This document shows positions 1,850 to 22,099 of a DNA stretch of 22,408 nucleotides, in pieces. Position 1 is the first letter of the stretch. Every line of letters starts with the position of its first letter. The stretch is from a virus. The notes under the pieces were generated by a model, which did no database searches, was not told the origin of the DNA, and was given only the letters and a program-made list of their open reading frames with translations. The translations under genes were made by a program, and so were the position numbers. The DNA lies in the IMG/VR virus record IMGVR_UViG_3300030329_005225, positions 1 through 22,408 of that record. The stretch is one strand, 5' to 3'.

Positions 1850-3334
1850 GTGGGCACTTCTCCGCACCATTTCCGCGCTCCGCCGGTCCCTGTCGATCCG
1901 TCCGAGGCGGCGCGGTGGCGCGAGACCCGCCGACGGGAGCGCCTCCTGTCGGGCACGTGGCAATCCGACCTAGAGGGCACGCTCCGCGCCCATTTCGGCC
2001 GCACCCGTCGCGCCATCATGGGCCGGAAGTCGATGGCGAGGAACCCCTTCCGGCGTCTGTGTGAGCAGCTCGCCGCAAACTACCTCGAAGGCGTGCGGGT
2101 CGAGCACCGTACCCAGGCCGGCCTCGCCGGATTCCTGGGCGCCCTCGACGGTGCCCCGGGCCTCCTGGAGCGCCTCGGGGTCTGGTCTTTTATGGTCGAC
2201 GTTCAACAGCGGATCGTGGGCCTCCGCGAAATGCTGGTCAAGGTCGAGCAGGACCGCGCCACCGGCGAATTGTATCTCCGCGACGTCCGGCCAGATTGCG
2301 TCCAGCTCGAAGCGAGGCCGGACCGGCCAGAGCTTCCGACCGTTTACCGCGAGCTCCGCTGGCGCGTCCTTGCCGACGGTCGGGGTGTCTGGGCGTGGGA
2401 CGTGTACGACGTCACCGATCCCCGCTTCCCGGCCTATCGGGTCGTCGAGGCGGGCCTGGCTGGCCATGACGGGCCCACCCTCGCCGCGCTGGAAGGGTCC
2501 GCCTACCCCTACCGCTACACCCAGGGCGACCGGGCCGGGCTTCCCTTCCTGCCGGCGGTCCTGTACCACGCGCGGCGGACGGGCCGGCTGTGGGATCCTT
2601 ACCGCGAAGTCGAAGCCGTAGAAGCTACCATGGACGTGGCCGCGGCCTATACCTTTCTTCAGCATGGCCTATTCCGCGCGTCGTACCCGATCCGCTGGGT
2701 CCATGGCGCGATGCTGGCCGGTGCCGCCGTCGAGGGCGACGGATCCGAGGCGCGCATGGCGATCCCGACGGATCCCACGTCCCTGGCGCTGCTGGTCAAG
2801 GACCCGACGGCCGACACGGTACAAACCGGCCAATGGGGCCCGGGCGTCGACCCGGTACAGCTACAGATGGCCGTCGAGAAGCTAGAGGCCGCCCTGTCGA
2901 GCTTCGACGGCCTCGACGTCGGGCCCGTTCTCCGCGGTAGTAGCAACCCGATGAGCGCTGAAGCGTTGACGATCTCGCGGCAGACCAAGCGCGAGGCCCA
3001 GCAGCGGTACGGGCGCGTCCTCGAACCCTCCGACGTCGCGCTGGTCGAGCTGATCGCGGTGATGTCCAACCTCACGGGAGCCGCGCCTCCGGTACCGGAG
3101 CAGGGGTACACGGTCGAACACCGGCTTCTCCCGCTGTCCCCGGCGGAGCGCCGCGAGCGCCGCGAGCACAACACCTACCGCCTCAAGGAGGGGTTGATGT
3201 CGCGCGTCGACGCTTACATCGACGAACACCCCGGCACGTCGCGCGAGGAGGCCGAGGTGGCCCTGGTCCGCGTGGCGGAGGAACAGGCGCGCCTGGCGGC
3301 CGCTGCACCGATTGTGGAGATCCCTGATGCCTGA
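1850..3334 (+). CDS. Portal protein
   Basis: The portal forms the ring at one capsid vertex through which DNA enters and leaves, binding terminase and then the neck proteins. The 494-residue length fits siphovirus portals. It has a helical N-terminus with the segment MARNPFRRLCEQLAANYLEG, a beta-rich middle with tryptophan-rich strands (RELRWRVLADGRGVWAWDVYDV), and a C-terminal helical part containing SSNPMSAEALTISRQTKREA. That last segment resembles the stem/crown helix region of Mu gp29- and SPP1-type portals. Position between terminase and scaffold/capsid supports the call. The start is GTG at 1850 with only a weak GGGG upstream; no better in-frame start is evident. Its end overlaps the next gene by 8 bases. 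Confidence 0.85.
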   Translation: MGTSPHHFRAPPVPVDPSEAARWRETRRRERLLSGTWQSDLEGTLRAHFGRTRRAIMGRKSMARNPFRRLCEQLAANYLEGVRVEHRTQAGLAGFLGALDGAPGLLERLGVWSFMVDVQQRIVGLREMLVKVEQDRATGELYLRDVRPDCVQLEARPDRPELPTVYRELRWRVLADGRGVWAWDVYDVTDPRFPAYRVVEAGLAGHDGPTLAALEGSAYPYRYTQGDRAGLPFLPAVLYHARRTGRLWDPYREVEAVEATMDVAAAYTFLQHGLFRASYPIRWVHGAMLAGAAVEGDGSEARMAIPTDPTSLALLVKDPTADTVQTGQWGPGVDPVQLQMAVEKLEAALSSFDGLDVGPVLRGSSNPMSAEALTISRQTKREAQQRYGRVLEPSDVALVELIAVMSNLTGAAPPVPEQGYTVEHRLLPLSPAERRERREHNTYRLKEGLMSRVDAYIDEHPGTSREEAEVALVRVAEEQARLAAAAPIVEIPDA

Positions 3335-3938: not shown

Positions 3939-4865
3939 ATGCCTATCAATACCGGCGCCGTCCCCGGCTCGAACGCACTCACCACTGAGGTCGCGATCCA
4001 GTTCGCGGGCTTGATGCTCGGCGACCGTTCCAACCTGCGGAACCATCCGGCACTCCTCAACCTCAACGCCTACGGCTTTGGCCGGGTCGGTAGCGGATCC
4101 GGCACCTACCAGTGGCCGATCTTCGACTGGGACCGCGGAGCCCTGACCGCCTATGCGGAGGGCGTCACCATCACCGAAGACACCCTGTCCTCTCTCCAGC
4201 GGCAGCTCGCCGCGGCCCGTTACGGCGGTATGAACGCCGTGACCGATGATATGCGGGCCGTCGATCCCACGGGCAGCCTGGCCCCGATGCGCTTTATGAT
4301 GCACGGTGTCGCGAAGGCGGCGCAGACCTTGACCGACCTGATCGCCAAGCTGACTACCGGCTGGTCCTCGCAGGTCGGGACCACGGCGGTCGCGATGACG
4401 CACGACACCTTCATCGCGGCGAAGAAGGCGCTGATTCAGAATTCTGTGCCCGGGCCTTACATGCTGGTCTGGCACCAGGACCAGCACGCCGACTGGATCG
4501 ACGATCTCGAAGCTCGAACCGGCGTGACGCAATGGCGGCCCGCAACGGCCGAACAGATGCGCCTCCGCGGGCCCGGCTTCCAAGGTTCCTACGACGGCGT
4601 CGACATCTTCACCACCGACAAGGTTGCCGACTCCGGCGGCGACTGGGTCGGGCAGATGATCGGCGGCGGCGCGATCGCGTTCGGTGAGCAGGAGATCGTC
4701 GCGCCCGAGGACGCGAACATCCTTTTCCACCTCGGGCCGATCCTCGTCGAAGCCGAGCGGACCGCCTCTGACTCCGTGTCTTCGGTCTATACGTCGTATC
4801 GCGTCGGTGTGATCGAGGTTGAGGACGGCCGGGGCTGCGGGCTCCTGTCGGTGAAGGCCCCCTGA
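3939..4865 (+). CDS. Major capsid protein, HK97-type
   Basis: The protein builds the icosahedral head. It has 308 residues, a usual size for HK97-fold capsid proteins without a long N-terminal delta domain. Visible traits include an N-terminal arm, an aromatic segment YQWPIFDWDRGALTAYAEGV followed by TITEDT (about residues 64-90, like an E-loop/strand region), a long spine-like helix near residues 115-140, and mixed alpha/beta segments ending in SVYTSYRVGVIEVEDGRG, typical of the A and P domains. A TGAGG ribosome binding site precedes the ATG. It sits between scaffold and connector genes, and its stop overlaps the next start (TGATG). No decoration gene is obvious. Confidence 0.88.
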   Translation: MPINTGAVPGSNALTTEVAIQFAGLMLGDRSNLRNHPALLNLNAYGFGRVGSGSGTYQWPIFDWDRGALTAYAEGVTITEDTLSSLQRQLAAARYGGMNAVTDDMRAVDPTGSLAPMRFMMHGVAKAAQTLTDLIAKLTTGWSSQVGTTAVAMTHDTFIAAKKALIQNSVPGPYMLVWHQDQHADWIDDLEARTGVTQWRPATAEQMRLRGPGFQGSYDGVDIFTTDKVADSGGDWVGQMIGGGAIAFGEQEIVAPEDANILFHLGPILVEAERTASDSVSSVYTSYRVGVIEVEDGRGCGLLSVKAP

Positions 4866-6736: not shown

Positions 6737-7207
6737 ATGGCATCCCCACGAATTCCCCGCGATGGTACGATCACCGTAGAAGACGACTCCGGAACCCCAA
6801 TTTCGTACACAGTCCTGTACGAGGACGGCGACTACAAAGGGCCGGAGATGATGGAGGACCAGTCTGACATCGCGGAGTTCTACGATCGTCAGGAGCTGTA
6901 CGCGATCCGGAAGACCCAGCGGAAGTCTGCGGCGTTTTCGTTCTCCGCCCATCTTACCGACGTCGAGGGCTGGAAGCTCAAGGACGCGTTTTCTAAAACG
7001 GGCGCCTATTCCTCCGGCGTCTCGACTTCCGCGAGCTACGGCGACGTGTGGACGGTCAAGGTGACGTGGACCGACGGCACCCTTTCGCAGGTCCTGCCCC
7101 ATTGCCATGGCAAGGTGACCTTCTCCGAGGGTGAGCCGGGCAAGGTTGAAGTCTCCGGTACCGTCTTCTTCTTCACCGCCGCCGAGGTGGCGGCGCTGAC
7201 CTCATGA
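6737..7207 (+). CDS. Major tail tube protein
   Basis: The 156-residue product is predicted to form the hexameric rings of the tail tube. It is almost wholly beta-stranded, beginning MASPRIPRDGTITVEDDSG and continuing with strands such as AAFSFSAHLTDVEGW, WTVKVTWTDG and KVTFSEGEPGKVEVSGTVFF. A "GEPGKVEVSGTVFF" type ending is typical of tube proteins. AGGAG at 6724-6728 lies 8 bases before the ATG, one of the stronger initiation sites here, as expected for an abundant virion protein. It precedes the tail assembly chaperone genes, which supports the call. Confidence 0.8.
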   Translation: MASPRIPRDGTITVEDDSGTPISYTVLYEDGDYKGPEMMEDQSDIAEFYDRQELYAIRKTQRKSAAFSFSAHLTDVEGWKLKDAFSKTGAYSSGVSTSASYGDVWTVKVTWTDGTLSQVLPHCHGKVTFSEGEPGKVEVSGTVFFFTAAEVAALTS

Positions 7208-7635
7208 TCGAGGATCTCCCGCGCGAGGATACCGCCGAGGAGGCGGATCCGACGGTTCCGGACTATCTGGAGATCGTCGGCCGTCGCATGCCGGCCATGC
7301 TCCCGCCCTCTGTCGCCGTCCGTGAGGAGCTTGCGGATCTCTGGGTCCGCAAGTCCGAGCTCCACGCGTCGAGGATTGCGGGGGCGTTCCTGGGCACCTG
7401 CTGCCCTTCCTTGGCGGCTCAGGCTGGCGTCACTCTCCGCGGCTGCGGTTTCGATCTCTTCGTGTTCGGCGGCGGCGTCTACGACTACTTGAGATCCAAG
7501 GGGCTGACCCGGATCGAGGTGTTCCAGGCGTCGCTACCATTTCGTGATGCGGTCCTGGTCGCCCTCTTCCCGCGGGAGTCGGAGGTGTCGGCGCAGGTGG
7601 ATTTTATCGAAGCCGGCGGGGGCGGCTCGACCTGA
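7204..7635 (+). CDS. Tail assembly chaperone, first frame (G-like)
   Basis: The 143-residue protein lies between tail tube and tape measure, the usual place of the tail assembly chaperone that coats the tape measure before tube polymerisation. It starts by ATGA overlap with the tube gene. The N-terminus is acidic (IEDLPREDTAEEADPTVPD), followed by helices and a Cys/Gly segment (GTCCPSLAAQAGVTLRGCG), and the end is Gly-rich (EAGGGGST). It is followed by a short ORF in the -1 frame whose product resembles the T part of G/GT pairs. The sequence alone cannot show whether the two are joined by frameshifting or made separately via the TGATG overlap. Confidence 0.7.
   Translation: MIEDLPREDTAEEADPTVPDYLEIVGRRMPAMLPPSVAVREELADLWVRKSELHASRIAGAFLGTCCPSLAAQAGVTLRGCGFDLFVFGGGVYDYLRSKGLTRIEVFQASLPFRDAVLVALFPRESEVSAQVDFIEAGGGGST
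7617..7623 (+). other. Possible -1 ribosomal frameshift site
   Basis: In the frame of the first chaperone ORF the codons read GGC GGG GGC, giving CGGGGGC in heptamer position, 10 bases before the stop. It misses the XXXYYYZ rule at the first base but contains a G5 run. The -1 frame is open from 7548 to 7745, so a slip here would fuse the two chaperone parts. This is a candidate only. Confidence 0.3.
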
Positions 7636-7745
7636 TGGCCTTGCGGCTCTGCCGGCGGTGGAATCGGGAGCCCGGGTGGTTCCGCGGTCTACCCCGGGCC
7701 CGTCAGATCGAAGTCCTCGCCGAGCTGAACCTGGGAGCGGAGTAA
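7635..7745 (+). CDS. Tail assembly chaperone, second frame (T-like, 36 aa)
   Basis: This small ORF runs from the ATG in TGATG at the end of the first chaperone part to a TAA overlapping the next start. It encodes 36 residues, starting MALRLCRRWNREPGWFRGLP and continuing with an acidic helix (RQIEVLAELNLG). The pattern Trp-x-x-x-Pro-x-Trp-Phe followed by a short helix is characteristic of the C-terminal part of gpGT-type chaperones, which binds the tape measure. Its frame is -1 relative to the upstream ORF, as in lambda. It may be an extension produced by frameshifting rather than an independent protein. Removing it would leave an otherwise unexplained 109-base gap in a gapless operon. Confidence 0.65.
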   Translation: MALRLCRRWNREPGWFRGLPRARQIEVLAELNLGAE

Positions 7746-8086
7746 TGCCAACCGGCCTCAAGCTGGACACCGATGTTCGCGGGATGTCTGCGGGCCTGGC
7801 CAACCGTGCCGAGGACCGGACCCCGGCGGTGATGCTTCGGTATTTACAACCCGCCTTCGACCGAGCCCGGCGCCTGTGGCCGGTCAAGTCGGGAGAATCC
7901 CGGGATCTGCTCTACATGGCCGATATCCGCGTCGAGAACGGCGAGATCGTCGCGGAGCTGGGTAACCGTGCCTGGTATGCGTACTATATCCGCCGCGGAA
8001 AGACCGCCCGGAACCTGATGATCAAGGCGTCGGATCAGGCGGCCGATCGGATCGTGTCCAACCTCGGTGATGAGCTGGTGCGCTGA
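7745..8086 (+). CDS. Minor tail/neck protein, HK97 gp10-like
   Basis: The 113-residue product starts at the ATG in TAATG; the frame is open further upstream, but that part overlaps the chaperone genes. It has an early helix, then PVKSGESRDLLYMADIRVENG and ELGNRAWYAYYIRRGKTARN, and a C-terminal helix ending IVSNLGDELVR. The order (residues for a grafted arginine/serine turn, a strand pair, then AWYAYYI and a final helix) resembles HK97 gp10-type proteins, which act at the head-tail or tail-completion interface. That family usually sits before the tail tube, so a position between chaperone and tape measure is unusual. The assignment is tentative. Confidence 0.5.
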   Translation: MPTGLKLDTDVRGMSAGLANRAEDRTPAVMLRYLQPAFDRARRLWPVKSGESRDLLYMADIRVENGEIVAELGNRAWYAYYIRRGKTARNLMIKASDQAADRIVSNLGDELVR

Positions 8087-10344
8087 TGGCGGTGTCCAAG
8101 GACATTCGGATCCGGATCCTCGCGGAGGCCAAGGAATTCGCGAAGGGTATGCGGGAGGTGCCCAAAACCACCGAGCGGCAGGTGGGTATCGCTACGCGGG
8201 CGTTTATCAAGGAGATGACCAAGGCCGAGGCGGCGTCGGCGAAGGCGGCCCAACGCGCCGCGGCCAAACAGGCGGCCGCACACAAGAAAGCGGCGAAGGC
8301 CTCCGCGGAGAGCTGGAAAAAGTTCGGGGCGGGCATCGCGGCCGCCGGGGCCGCGGTCGCTGCTGCCGGGGCCGCGGTCGCCCGGATGGGCCAGCATGTG
8401 GCCGATCTTCGAAACGATCTGATCGACGCGAGCACACGGACCGGAATTGCCGCCGCCACCCTCGGCGGGCTCCGTCTCGCCGCGGAGGGCAGCGGTCAGG
8501 CGTTCGACAGCCTTTTACCGGCGCTGGACAAGCTCCCCAGCCGCATGGCAGACGTCGCCAAGGGCACCGGCCCCACCGCGGAGGCGTTCCAGCGCCTCGG
8601 CGTCGAAGCCCAGATCGATGGCAAACTGAGACCGGCCGACGATGTTCTGCGGGATCTCCTCGCGAGCCTCTCCGACGTCGAGGATCCCACGACCCGGGCC
8701 GCGCTGGCTACTCAGGCGTTCGGCAAATCCGGCGGCAAGCTCCTACAAGCCCTTGGCGATACCTCCAGCTTGGAAGCGTTCGTTCGACTGTCTGACGAAT
8801 TCGGGGTGGGGGTCGGTGAGGAGGCAGCCCAGGCGAGTGGAGACTGGCAACGGGCGGTGACGGAGCTGGGCTTGGTCTTCGACGGTCTACAGGCCCGCCT
8901 CGTCGGCTCCGATGGAATCATCAACGCGATCGAGCAGTTCACCGTTGCCACGGTATTCGTAGCGGAGGTGGGCGGTGCGGCGATCGTCGCGTACGGTGCC
9001 CAGCTCGAAAAGCTCGCCACCGCCTGGCGCGGCCTGCTGTCGGGCGACCTGCCGCAAGACGCCTCCGATCTATTCGTGTTCAAGACGCCGATCGAAGCGG
9101 TGTCGGCGGCGATCGAGACGGCGCGAGGTTCGGCCGCGGACAGCGCGGAGACATTCCGCGAGCTGCGAGACACGACGAGAGACGCGGCCGCCGGGATGGC
9201 GGAGGCCGCGGAGGCTCAGCGGAAGATCGATGCCGACTTCAGGGCGAAGCCGAAGGACACAACCGAAGCCGACGCGGCGAAGGCGGCCCAACGGCGAGCG
9301 AAGGCGGCCGCGGCCGAGAGGTCGGCCACCGCGGCGCGTCAGCGTCAGGACGACGCGGCCCGGATCGCCTTGCTACGCGAGGAGGCCGATCTTGTCTCCG
9401 CCTCCGCGACCCTTGAGGGCATCCAGGCGGACAACCTCGCCCGGCGCGTAGCCGAAACCGGCCAATTGGTCGATCAGGAGCGCGCGATCAACCTTGAGAT
9501 CGAGGCGCGCCTGGCCGGTGTGGCGGCGGAGCTGGATCGCGCGGTAGCCCAGGGCCTTGACCAGGGCGAGGCAGCGCTGGCCCTTGAGGAAGCGATCACG
9601 GTGGCGGAGCTGGAGCGGGTCCGCCGGGTTTCGGAGGCTCGGGGCCAAGCTCACGCAACCCGGATGATGGAGATCCAGTCTCAGTTCGAGGCTACCCAGC
9701 GAATGGCGGCGGGCTGGATGTCCGCGATCGACACTCTGGCCACGTTCGAGGTCAACCGCCGGTCTGATGCGCTCAGGAGCATCCAGGACCGCTACACACG
9801 CCAACAAGACGACCTCAGCGCGTCCGAGAAGCGCGCCCTCCGCCGTCGATACGCGGAGGAAGCCCGGGCGATGCAGCGGGCGTTCGTCGCCATGAAGACG
9901 GCGCGGATATCGGAGGTGGCGATGTCTACCGCCGTCGCGGTGATCCAAGCCCTGGCCGTTCTCGGCCCGGTCGCCGGTCCGATCGCTGCGGCTGGCATCG
10001 CTGCCGCCGGAGCTGCCCAGGCTGCGGTCATCGCAGCACAAAAGGCGCCCACCTACCATACGGGCGGGATCGTCGGTCCACCGGCCGACGGCCTCCAGCC
10101 TGGCGAGCGGTCGATCGTTGCCCAGGATGGCGAGGGCGTCCTGACCCGGTCCGGCGTGGATGCGGCGGGCGGTCCGGCCGGTGTGGCGGCGCTCAATGCC
10201 GGCGCCGCGCCCAGCTCCGCGCCCACCGTGGTCCAGTTCCGCCTACGCCATAGCGTCCTCGATCAGGTGATGGTCGAGCGCGACCAACGGGCCGGGGCGC
10301 GCAACCTCCGCCGCAACCCCTACCGCCCGGGCACATTGCGATGA
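8086..10344 (+). CDS. Tape measure protein
   Basis: This is the 752-residue rod that sets tail length and is ejected with the DNA. The N-terminal ~80 residues are Ala/Lys-rich helix, followed by an Ala/Gly hydrophobic stretch (about 80-104) that includes a tandem repeat. Next comes a globular part with DLRNDLIDASTRTGIAAATL and KLPSRMADVAKGTGPTAEAF, typical of phage tape measures, then long coiled coil with many Arg/Glu/Ala (about 340-600). Near the C-terminus is a hydrophobic segment (IQALAVLGPVAGPIAAAGIA), then HTGGIVG from residue 658 and GEGVLTRSGV, a common tape measure ending. From the known ~0.15 nm per residue, a tail of about 110 nm is expected. The start overlaps the previous stop (TGATG). 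Confidence 0.9.
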   Translation: MAVSKDIRIRILAEAKEFAKGMREVPKTTERQVGIATRAFIKEMTKAEAASAKAAQRAAAKQAAAHKKAAKASAESWKKFGAGIAAAGAAVAAAGAAVARMGQHVADLRNDLIDASTRTGIAAATLGGLRLAAEGSGQAFDSLLPALDKLPSRMADVAKGTGPTAEAFQRLGVEAQIDGKLRPADDVLRDLLASLSDVEDPTTRAALATQAFGKSGGKLLQALGDTSSLEAFVRLSDEFGVGVGEEAAQASGDWQRAVTELGLVFDGLQARLVGSDGIINAIEQFTVATVFVAEVGGAAIVAYGAQLEKLATAWRGLLSGDLPQDASDLFVFKTPIEAVSAAIETARGSAADSAETFRELRDTTRDAAAGMAEAAEAQRKIDADFRAKPKDTTEADAAKAAQRRAKAAAAERSATAARQRQDDAARIALLREEADLVSASATLEGIQADNLARRVAETGQLVDQERAINLEIEARLAGVAAELDRAVAQGLDQGEAALALEEAITVAELERVRRVSEARGQAHATRMMEIQSQFEATQRMAAGWMSAIDTLATFEVNRRSDALRSIQDRYTRQQDDLSASEKRALRRRYAEEARAMQRAFVAMKTARISEVAMSTAVAVIQALAVLGPVAGPIAAAGIAAAGAAQAAVIAAQKAPTYHTGGIVGPPADGLQPGERSIVAQDGEGVLTRSGVDAAGGPAGVAALNAGAAPSSAPTVVQFRLRHSVLDQVMVERDQRAGARNLRRNPYRPGTLR
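8341..8382 (+). repeat. Two-copy 21-bp tandem repeat in tape measure gene
   Basis: Two adjacent 21-base units (8341-8361 and 8362-8382) differ at two silent positions and each encode AAGAAVA. Silent differences suggest an old duplication kept under protein-level selection. In-frame gain or loss would slightly change the hydrophobic helix. Confidence 0.7.
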
Positions 10345-19668: not shown

Positions 19669-19850
19669 CTGTGCCCGGACCTGTGCCAGCCCGAGGGCCG
19701 CCCTGTGCCATATCGCCGGGCACAAAAAACACATACCGCCAGATAACCAAGGTTATTCGGTGGTTCTTCTGGTGGCCCTAACTTCTTCGCCAAGTGAGGA
19801 CGATTCAGGAACACCGCGGGATCTCGCGAGCTGTGCCCGTCATGTGTGCC
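19669..19850. repeat. Repeated CTGTGCC motifs, possible integrase arm sites
   Basis: CTGTGCCC occurs at 19669 and 19831, CTGTGCCA at 19681 and 19703, and TTGTGCCC in inverse at 19718-19725. TGTGCC occurs again at 19845-19850, inside the integrase 3' end. A 13-base block CGAGCTGTGCCCG is repeated at 19665 and 19827. Short direct and inverted repeats next to a tyrosine integrase resemble attP arm-type sites; the core is not identifiable without the host junction. Confidence 0.45.
19735..19764. promoter_or_regulatory. Operator-like palindrome, 14-base arms
   Basis: ACCGCCAGATAACC and GGTTATTCGGTGGT flank AA; 11 of 14 arm positions pair, with a perfect ATAACC/GGTTAT core. It differs in sequence from the other palindrome, so a second regulator or an integrase/excisionase site is possible. 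Confidence 0.55.
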
Positions 19851-20973
19851 GGCGCAGCGCGATCACCTTCCCGGCGGGTAGCGCGCCGAGACCGGAGCGG
19901 GCGGCGGCGTCGGACAGCGCGCCGTCTCGGGCCTGGGCATAGTCGCGAGCCGCGACGGCGTACCGGTGCCCCATGATCTGCTCGTAGGTCAGGACCGCCA
20001 CCCCGGCCTCTAGGAGCTGGGTAGAGACCATCCGGCGGAGGGCGTGCGGGCTGAAGCGTGGCACCCCGGCGGCATCGCACGCGACGTAGAGCGGAACCCG
20101 GCTCCGGCTCCAGGCTGCCGAGGTGCTCCTGGCCACGCCGATCACGTACCGGTGAGGGGCGACCAGCGCGCACACGATCGCGGCCGCGCGGAGCCCGTCG
20201 AGGAGAGCGCGATCGACGATGGGCACCCGACGCGGGCCGGTCTTCCCCTCGACCTGTAGCCACCCCCGGCCCAGGTCGACATCGGACCAGCGTAGGCCGG
20301 CGATCTCGCCGTACCGGCACCCCGTGGCGGCGAGTAGTCGAACGAGGGTCCAGACCCAAGGATGGCGGCAGGTCTCCAGCTCTGCCAGGACGGCCGCCAC
20401 CTCGCCGATCGTCGGTGTGTAGACCGGTCGGCGCTTCGCGTCGATCCGCAGCCGTGGGAGCGCGCGATCGAGGTAGCCCAGCTCGGTGGCCCAGCGCTCG
20501 GCCTGCCGGAGAACCCCCAGATCGGCCCGGATGGTCATCGAAGCGAGGCCGGAGCCGTCGCGGTACCGGCGGAGGGTCGCCGAGGTCAGCGCGTGGAGCT
20601 GCACAGCGCCGATCACGCGGTCGAGCCGGCGCAGGGCTCCCCGCTTGGCTTCCCACGTCCGCTGGTGGATCTCTCCGCGCTCGTACCGGTCTCTCTGAGC
20701 CCGTCCCCACCCCCTGAGCAGCTCCCCGACGGTCCGCGGTAGGTCGGCGCCCGGATCCTTCTCCGCGTCGGCCTCCGGGTCGGCGAGGAGCCGGTGGGCG
20801 GTCCGCTCCGCGTCGCGCTTCGACGCCCACCCGGCCCAAAGCGTGCGCCCATGGTAGCGCACCCTCCAGTACCAGAGCCCGCTCCGCGGGCCTCGAACGA
20901 CGGACAGACCACGTACGGAGGACGACGGGCGACGGGGCGGCATGGGCTCACCTAGGCGGGCGGGAACCTCCAT
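19840..20973 (-). CDS. int: Tyrosine site-specific recombinase (integrase)
   Basis: The 377-residue enzyme integrates the phage genome by recombination between attP and attB. The N-terminal part (about 20-75) is an arm-binding-like region (SGLWYWRVRYHGRTLWAGWA), followed by a SAM-like core-binding helical domain (about 80-170). The catalytic domain has all six residues: R220 (TGCRYGEIAGLRW), K244 (VEGKTGPRRVPI), H310 and R313 (PHALRRM), H336 (MGHRY) and Y345 (ARDYAQ). Length is normal. The chosen ATG at 20973 overlaps the methyltransferase stop (TGATG). In-frame alternatives are GTG 20976 and ATG 20943, the latter with AGGTGAG ahead of it. The gene ends next to the repeat-rich region that may hold attP. 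Confidence 0.93.
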   Translation of the reverse strand: MEVPARLGEPMPPRRPSSSVRGLSVVRGPRSGLWYWRVRYHGRTLWAGWASKRDAERTAHRLLADPEADAEKDPGADLPRTVGELLRGWGRAQRDRYERGEIHQRTWEAKRGALRRLDRVIGAVQLHALTSATLRRYRDGSGLASMTIRADLGVLRQAERWATELGYLDRALPRLRIDAKRRPVYTPTIGEVAAVLAELETCRHPWVWTLVRLLAATGCRYGEIAGLRWSDVDLGRGWLQVEGKTGPRRVPIVDRALLDGLRAAAIVCALVAPHRYVIGVARSTSAAWSRSRVPLYVACDAAGVPRFSPHALRRMVSTQLLEAGVAVLTYEQIMGHRYAVAARDYAQARDGALSDAAARSGLGALPAGKVIALRRHT

Positions 20974-21842
20974 CACATCACATCGCCGCGTTCGGTGAAC
21001 AGTTCGCGGATCACGTGCCCAATTACGGCGGCCGCGGGAGGGACTACCGAATTTCCTAGAGCTCGGATCCGGGCGGGTCGGTCGGGCACCCGTCCACGTC
21101 GGTCCAACCGGCCGGAAAGCCCATGAACGCCTCGCACCACCACGGGCAGAGAGGGCCGGGCGTTGGTCCAGGGCGGGTGCCCCGGATCGCCTCGTTCAAC
21201 GGCCGACCCGTTGATCGGCTCTGGGTCGCGGGCGAGCTGGCCGCAGACTTCCAATCGCGCGAGATGAGTGTGGGCAGCAATCCGCACACCGCGGTCGCCA
21301 GCCCGTCTCCACTCCGCGCCGATAGGCCGGCGACATTGTAATTGCCCTTCGCCGTCAACGTAGGCAACGACGAAAAGCCGCGATCGCCGGTGAAGGGCGC
21401 CAACGTCAGAGGCTCGCACGCGAATTGGCACGCTGGAATACCCGACGGCCCAGAGAGAGCGCCGCAGCTCGGGCAGGTAGGAACGCCAGGAGTGGAAGAC
21501 GTTTTCGACCACAACGAGAGCTGGACGGGTCTCATCGATGATCCTTCGCATTTCCCACCAAAGTCCAGACCGCGGAGCGTGTAGGCCCTCCTGTTTCCCG
21601 GCTGCGCTTAGATCGGTACACGGGAACCCGCCGACCACCAGATCGGCGGGTGGGAGGTTGTGAGCGCCGACGGTCCGCACGTCGTCGAACCTTGGCACGT
21701 GGGGCCAGTGCTTCGCGAGGACCCGCCGACAAAAGGGATCGGCCTCGACCTGGTAGACAATTTGGCCCAGGGAATCGGGCTCGAGCCCGTTGATACCGTG
21801 CTCGAGCCCGCCGATCCCAGAAAAAATTGACCCGATCCGCAT
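20973..21842 (-). CDS. DNA cytosine-5 methyltransferase
   Basis: The 289-residue enzyme transfers a methyl group from S-adenosylmethionine to cytosine C5. Motif I is SIFSGIGGLEHG (residues 5-16), motif IV is GGFPCTDLSAAG with catalytic C75, motif VI is VVVENV (E113), motif VIII is near RRSR (152-155), and motif X is RIRALGNSVVPP (258-269). The target-recognition region between them is short (about 165-240). No restriction nuclease lies alongside, so it is an orphan methyltransferase, a common phage means to protect its own DNA or alter gene expression. It starts at ATG 21842 (GTG 21845 also in frame) in TGATG overlap with the helix-turn-helix gene, and is translationally joined to integrase. 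Confidence 0.93.
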   Translation of the reverse strand: MRIGSIFSGIGGLEHGINGLEPDSLGQIVYQVEADPFCRRVLAKHWPHVPRFDDVRTVGAHNLPPADLVVGGFPCTDLSAAGKQEGLHAPRSGLWWEMRRIIDETRPALVVVENVFHSWRSYLPELRRSLWAVGYSSVPIRVRASDVGALHRRSRLFVVAYVDGEGQLQCRRPIGAEWRRAGDRGVRIAAHTHLARLEVCGQLARDPEPINGSAVERGDPGHPPWTNARPSLPVVVRGVHGLSGRLDRRGRVPDRPARIRALGNSVVPPAAAVIGHVIRELFTERGDVM

Positions 21843-22099
21843 CACACCACATCGCCCACCCGCCTGGCCCAGCGCGAGCCGCCAACGGCGCGCGGCCTCG
21901 GCGTGACCTCGGCTCCGGCCTGGTAGGCCTCGGCGGCATCGACCACCGATCCCCAGCGGTAGGTCGTGCGGCTACCGATGGTCAGACCGCGGAGGCCTGC
22001 GACGATGGCGCGCACGGTCTCCCGTCGTACCTGGAGCTCCCGCGCGGCCTGGGCTACCGTTACGCGGTTGTCAGGGCCCAGCGGAGCCCGGGCGGTCAT
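21842..22099 (-). CDS. Excisionase-like helix-turn-helix protein
   Basis: The 85-residue product has a helix-turn-helix over about residues 13-35 (VTVAQAARELQVRRETVRAI), then a strand-like turn (LRGLTIGSRTTYRWGSVVDA) and helix (AAEAYQAGAE), with a basic C-terminus. The order HTH then a "wing" with R-W/Y resembles AlpA/MerR-like excisionase and DNA-binding proteins that bend DNA at att sites. It is upstream of integrase in the same overlapping operon, separated by the methyltransferase, so directionality control or promoter regulation are both reasonable. It starts at ATG 22099 in ATGA overlap with the preceding gene. Confidence 0.55.
   Translation of the reverse strand: MTARAPLGPDNRVTVAQAARELQVRRETVRAIVAGLRGLTIGSRTTYRWGSVVDAAEAYQAGAEVTPRPRAVGGSRWARRVGDVV

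Follow-up and report, generated by a model that had tools for sequence, protein, structure and literature searches.

The window, the whole stretch of DNA analysed here, comprises 22,408 bases (68% GC) of the IMG/VR virus record IMGVR_UViG_3300030329_005225. The genes and features around the G/T pair are listed in Table 1. The pair follows the tail tube gene, whose identity is position-based, and the tape measure gene lies one gene past T. The same gene order around G/T was found by tblastn in the relatives examined. No PHROG match was obtained for the product of the gene upstream of G, and its structure model was too poor for use (pLDDT 44). The gp10-like gene matched phrog_5 with an E value of 0.017, using a query N-terminally longer than the gene, and PF04883 with an E value of 0.17, which is under the cut-off of that family. 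By tblastn, a gp10/neck-like gene separates T from the tape measure gene in nine distinct relatives as well as in the window.

Two minus-strand ORFs, one integrase-like (19840-20976) and one DNA-cytosine-methyltransferase-like (20973-21845), were recognized by eye and suggest a temperate phage. A tRNA search of the window found none. Genome contigs scanned with the capsid protein and the tape measure alignment gave no match, and therefore no host or prophage was assigned.

Table 1. Features of the G/T locus and its neighbours in the window.
Feature	Position	Strand	Basis or remark
Major tail protein candidate, upstream neighbour of G	6737..7207	+	Named from gene order alone; ORF kept ahead of G in relatives
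G, predicted tail assembly chaperone, 143 aa, 0-frame product	7204..7635	+	Precedes T frame, two genes ahead of tape measure gene; resembles G of relatives
GGAGGTG, Shine-Dalgarno-like element	7581..7587	+	11 bases upstream of slip heptamer; putative stimulator
Slip heptamer G GAT TTT, predicted -1 frameshift site	7599..7605	+	Aligned with in-frame heptamers of relatives
6-base spacer	7606..7611	+	Between heptamer and predicted stem
5' arm of predicted 10-bp stem	7612..7621	+	Fold prediction
3' arm of predicted 10-bp stem	7647..7656	+	Fold prediction
T extension, -1 frame after slip, 46 residues + TAA (predicted)	7605..7745	+	-1-frame translation
36-codon ORF, ATG to TAA, portion of T 3' of in-frame ATG	7635..7745	+	Possible minor free T via TGATG reinitiation
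gp10-like gene, 113 aa, weakly tail-completion/neck (HK97 gp10)-like	7745..8086	+	Joined to T by TAATG
Tape measure protein	8086..10344	+	phrog_8462, E 1.4e-24

Coding signal of the 36-codon ORF

An earlier note on this DNA had taken the 36-codon ORF, in the -1 frame of G, for the second part of a two-part tail assembly chaperone. The ORF is present as claimed, and the -1 frame open from 7548, the CGGGGGC sequence at 7617-7623 and the TGATG overlap were all described correctly. The open frame itself was rejected as evidence because the -1 frame was open for at least 29 codons at 3126 of 4911 in-gene positions (64%).

The GC content by codon position of 7636-7743, read in the T frame, was 0.75/0.53/0.83, resembling that of the other genes of the genome. 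Upstream of the ATG (7548-7634), the coding pattern was carried by the G frame. When thresholds were taken from the observed T values, a T-like pattern was present in 983 of 4962 true-frame scan windows and in 0 of 9924 wrong-frame ones. By tblastn, the 36 residues matched eight distinct contigs (E 4.5e-6 to 0.004, 33-48% identity) among the loci collected at that stage, a small database searched with composition correction and filter off. The Trp/Pro/Trp-Phe pattern, previously pointed out as typical of GT-type tails, recurs as PGWF in L067 and L068, PGWY in L071, and PSWW in L057. The ORF was judged to be coding because of this codon-position pattern and the conservation of the protein. It is genuine and conserved, and it forms the last part of a chaperone tail predicted to be encoded through a frameshift, not a free-standing gene.

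Collection of relatives

Direct searches with G, T, the terminase, the major capsid protein, the upstream tail gene, and the proteins at the portal and tail-hub positions returned nothing close; the best matches were weak, at 22-28% identity, and T gave none better than E 0.7. The relatives came solely via tape measure and tail-protein alignments. A match of the tape measure protein to two phages (three records) provided an alignment, whose scan yielded L010, and further scans with a tape measure alignment and a tail-protein alignment brought the total to 23 distinct metagenomic phage contigs with the module. Duplicates were removed, namely L055 and L073 (identical to L010), L066 (L057), L070 (L060), L074 (L054), L075 (L058), L076 (L059), L078 (L050), and L001 (the window). 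L082 stops before G, and L061 was left out of the junction comparison. The near-identical pairs L062/L063 and L067/L068 were retained, so that the 23 contigs do not equal 23 independent events. Counts over 24 loci refer to these 23 relatives plus the window.

The T frame and the slip heptamer in relatives

T occupies the -1 frame with respect to G in 23/23 relatives. The conservation of this frame, proposed earlier as a check, was thus borne out, and relatives lacking the downstream ORF, which had been named as the adverse outcome, were not encountered.

In-frame heptamers were searched for in the last 120 bases of G inside the open T frame. The relatives contain GGGTTTC (seven loci), GGGTTTT (five), GGATTTC (four), GGGAAAC (four), GGGAAAT (one), and TTTTTTC (one), with none in L081; 18 of the 23 are strict X XXY YYZ heptamers, and four are GGATTTC. 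The heptamer was found at the same aligned place, or at most one codon from it, in 22/23 relatives. In protein alignments of 17 and of 23 loci, the heptamers share one G column (D-F, G-F, or G-N), which corresponds to the D-F of GAT TTT in the window. The canonical heptamer of L079 sits one codon downstream, adjoining GGT TTT. The offset of the window GGATTTT from the G stop (-34) equals that of the heptamers in L067, L068, and L071. In-frame GGR(TTT/AAA)N sites are rare in the window (4 in 5574 codon positions), and the heptamer in Table 1 is among them. The third base is T in all 17 loci whose heptamer has GAT or GGT before the Phe codon, compared with a background in the same 23 G genes of 30 GAT among 143 Asp codons and 38 GGT among 294 Gly codons; these 17 loci are related and hence do not count as 17 independent events.

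The window heptamer departs from the strict X XXY YYZ pattern, with the Phe codon TTT re-pairing in full. The -1 reading after the predicted slip is Y-R-S-R-R-G-R-L-D-L-M-..., in which G-R-L-D, ahead of the ATG, is common to L067, L068, and L071. A T-like ORF in the -1 frame was also observed in L081 (L081:4236-4583); no canonical or TTT/AAA heptamer was found at that junction.

Start codons in the T frame

No ATG, GTG, or TTG was present in the T frame from the frame opening to ~44 bases past the G stop in 9/24 loci (L059, L062-L065, L069, L077, L080, and L081). A start codon at most 10 bases from the G stop was present in the T frame of six loci (the window, L067, L068, L071, L079, and L083). 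The window ATG is therefore not a family feature, and the TGATG start has no counterpart in most relatives. The G stop of L060 (4118-4120) and that of L056 (4111-4113) are located 88 and 91 bases, respectively, past the heptamer start, inside T. Judged from these coordinates, fusion is needed to make T at both loci. The two frames of G and T overlap across much of T in this pair. Because the T frame has no start or the G stop is deep within T, T would be made only as a fusion in many members of the family.

L083 has TAATG at the junction, and L067 and L068 have an ATG at +5; in all three, a canonical G GGA AAC is also present farther upstream. At the position of the L067 ATG, L071 has TTG. The Met at the junction can be an ordinary variable residue, to judge by this difference. 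In the window genome, the TGATG is an ordinary gene junction, since one-base stop/start overlaps are also present at 4865, 5536, 7745, 8086, and 16292.

Shine-Dalgarno-like element and downstream stem

The GGAGGTG element has the strongest anti-Shine-Dalgarno pairing in the window G gene (-13.3 kcal/mol), with 0/343 control positions as good, as scored with a standard 16S tail that may not be that of the host. This comparison was extended to 23 sites (the window and 22 relatives, L081 without a heptamer being left out). GGAGG was present at 14/23 sites, compared with 45 of 2048 control positions (2.2%), and the Shine-Dalgarno-like element ranked first in its own gene at 15/23 sites and not at the other eight.

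Among 300 nearby 50-base windows, four folded as well as or better than the predicted window stem. However, it did not fold better than shuffled versions of its own sequence (z +1.03 and -0.01), and it is therefore treated as a putative stem that is likely to form. A common bulged hairpin, also beginning 6 bases past the heptamer, was predicted for 11 relatives; the window stem is different and longer. In the hairpin of these relatives, 93.2% of pair cells were kept, and 2/500 shuffles were as good. Covariation was modest, with 2/12 pairs changed on both sides and 43/500 shuffles as good. The shuffle z values for six of the 11 relatives ranged from -1.31 to -3.25. The RNAalifold consensus adds a small stem that takes in the heptamer, and this stem was set aside.

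Profile and fold comparisons

Neither G nor T of the window matched any Pfam or PHROG family. G proteins of 17/24 loci gave no PHROG match at E 0.1; in Pfam, only one of them had a match, a weak one to DUF7426 (E 0.046). For the T parts of 10/24 loci, the best PHROG match had E 0.18, and every Pfam match was under its cut-off. The structure model of G (pLDDT 88) had a best PDB match of E 0.16 and a best VIA-align Z of 3.1. In BFVD, the best match (E 0.0048) was an uncharacterised protein from a marine virus; among the 50 BFVD matches listed, five were named tail assembly chaperone, and none of these was significant. The fold searches of PDB and BFVD thus gave no match identifying G.

Comparison with known frameshift systems

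The slip heptamer of phage lambda is G GGA AAG, and that of the window is GGATTTT. Both share a basic arrangement: G is followed, upstream of the tape measure gene, by a short -1-frame T domain, with fusion by -1 slippage close to the end of G, which in the window is predicted. The window differs from lambda by the Shine-Dalgarno-like element and the predicted stem at the site, by the extra gp10-like gene before the tape measure gene, and by G and T proteins that match no described family. The E. coli dnaX cassette consists of a Shine-Dalgarno sequence, A AAA AAG, and a hairpin. The window resembles it in having a Shine-Dalgarno element ~10 bases upstream, a slip site, and a stem a few bases downstream, and it differs in gene, heptamer, and outcome. 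Phage DSL-LC06, MT836035.1, and Idiomarinaceae phage 1N2-2 have distant major capsid or tape measure similarity to the window. All three have, by eye, a -1-frame T directly after G, with the heptamer A AAA AAC (DSL-LC06 and MT836035) or A AAA AAG (1N2-2) in place of GGATTTT. Their tape measure gene directly follows T, whereas in the window the gp10-like gene lies between the two. A review covers the G/GT mechanism and what the two proteins do (PMC5009743).

The window heptamer has a precedent outside phages. One study describes GGAUUUU as a functional -1 site of pea enation mosaic virus that deviates from X XXY YYZ and permits, in the -1 frame, three pairs in the A site and one in the P site (PMC4737148). 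In the same source, changing GGAUUUU to GGGUUUU gave 112% of wild-type shifting, mutation of the U run reduced shifting to near background, and blocking of P-site re-pairing left 36-40% (PMC4737148). The RNA2 site of this virus has the identical heptamer and frame, and a structure follows it after a short spacer (PMC4737148). It differs from the window in operating on eukaryotic ribosomes, in unrelated genes, and in a stop codon 3 bases past the site (PMC5009743); the two would work alike and are not related. PMC11050907 refers to G_GAU_UUU as a typical -1 motif. The PRFect authors state that the three-three motif is missing in most of their frameshift overlaps, and their backward sites include a motif named twoonefour (PMC10885494). 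Going by the motif name alone, GGATTTT could be a twoonefour site. In a phage tail assembly chaperone cluster, two genes are reported to shift at 6-7% (PMC3711429). In the literature on GGAUUUU shifting and on GGATTT/GGGTTT tail assembly, in which subscription papers were thinly covered, no report of the chaperone family of the window was found.

Proposed mechanism and alternatives

The window pair belongs to the known G/GT kind of tail chaperones, and a -1 programmed frameshift in the 3' end of G very probably yields G and GT. In this mechanism, ribosomes on G would traverse the GGAGGTG element and pause at GAT TTT while facing the stem 6 bases on, and some of them would slip by -1. The majority would terminate at 7635 and release G, whereas the shifted minority would add 46 T residues up to the TAA at 7743-7745, producing GT of 134 + 46 = 180 aa; the extension is close to the ~45 residues predicted in the earlier note. 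If the pair acts like that of lambda, numerous G and a few GT molecules would bind to the tape measure protein and bring in tail tube subunits, G presumably contacting the tape measure protein and T the tail tube protein. The sequence comparisons establish that T is coding and kept in the -1 frame, that the heptamers fall at one aligned place, and that a start is often absent. They suggest slippage, predicted for a minority of ribosomes, and possible stimulation by the Shine-Dalgarno-like element and the stem. The chaperone function of G/GT is suggested by gene order and by the predicted frameshift itself. Several observations speak against this explanation: re-pairing of the Asp-tRNA on GGA is poor, L081 has T without a heptamer, the window does have a junction ATG, the window stem does not exceed its shuffles, the hairpin of the relatives covaries only modestly, the Shine-Dalgarno-like element is not top-ranked at eight sites, and the fold searches of G gave no significant match. 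GGATTTT is also not a strict X XXY YYZ site, and the GGAUUUU studied experimentally comes from a eukaryotic virus, in which shifting fell to 36-40% once P-site re-pairing was blocked.

The two-part chaperone using the -1 frame, as put forward in the earlier note, was upheld; its slip site, and reinitiation at TGATG as the main route, were not. Slippage at CGGGGGC is very improbable. This sequence is a G-rich run in the correct frame and near the stop; however, the aligned heptamers of the relatives are farther upstream and correspond to GGATTTT, and 11 aligned relatives have CGGAGGC, CGACGGC, CAGCGGC, CAGGGGC, or GAGCGGC at its offset. It also overlaps the predicted stem in the window, and it was rejected. 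Even less probable, to the point of being nearly negligible, is that the ORF is spurious or that 7636-7745 forms the start of the gp10-like gene. The gp10-like frame is indeed open from 7508 to 8086, but over the T stretch its codon-position GC is 0.83/0.75/0.53, unlike coding sequence, and T is conserved in its own frame.

It is improbable, though less so than slippage at CGGGGGC, that T is a separate 36-aa protein made by termination-reinitiation at TGATG from 7635, with no fusion. The TGATG of the window, the one-base overlaps at its other junctions, the TAATG of L083, and the ATG at +5 in L067 and L068 would all fit such a split chaperone. However, the six loci with a nearby start are outnumbered by those without one, nine of them having none in frame at all; L083, L067, and L068 also hold their canonical heptamer; and the -1 frame is conserved 5' of the ATG (GRLD). 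The GeneTack authors regard a co-located stop and start as the signature of coupling (PMC3711429), and this signature is missing from most of the family. Reinitiation was therefore not retained as the main route, given also that TGATG and TAATG are common at other junctions. Free T may arise by reinitiation as a secondary product, and a minor amount of it alongside GT would be compatible with the frameshift. That both routes operate in the window, the non-standard GGATTTT cassette giving GT and TGATG additionally releasing a free 36-residue T, so that T would be tuned independently of the frameshift, is rather unlikely but the least improbable of the alternatives. The cassette and TGATG do occur together in the window, as do a canonical heptamer and TAATG in L083, and the GeneTack paper reports that coupling and recoding may share one gene pair (PMC3711429). 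Against this stands the lack of a conserved start, exemplified by the TTG of L071.

Significance of the family and its sister group

The -1 frameshift in G, as favoured here, adds to the tail chaperones a family that is missing from Pfam and PHROGs. Its heptamers differ (GGGTTTY, GGATTTY, and GGGAAAY) at a near-constant position, and many are flanked by a Shine-Dalgarno-like element and a stem. Because GGATTTY breaks the usual rule, they form a natural series for weighing P-site re-pairing on bacterial ribosomes. For annotation, this indicates merging the short T ORF with G instead of listing a separate 36-codon gene.

A sister group (L005-L009, L042-L044, L046-L049, L052, and L053) has a related tape measure protein and a different G/T pair. 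In each of the 14 loci listed, which represent 12 distinct contigs, T was in the +1 (or -2) frame relative to G. In 11/11 contigs checked, an in-frame TTT with C or T as the next base was found 33-87 bases before the G stop, and this sequence is a candidate +1 shift site.
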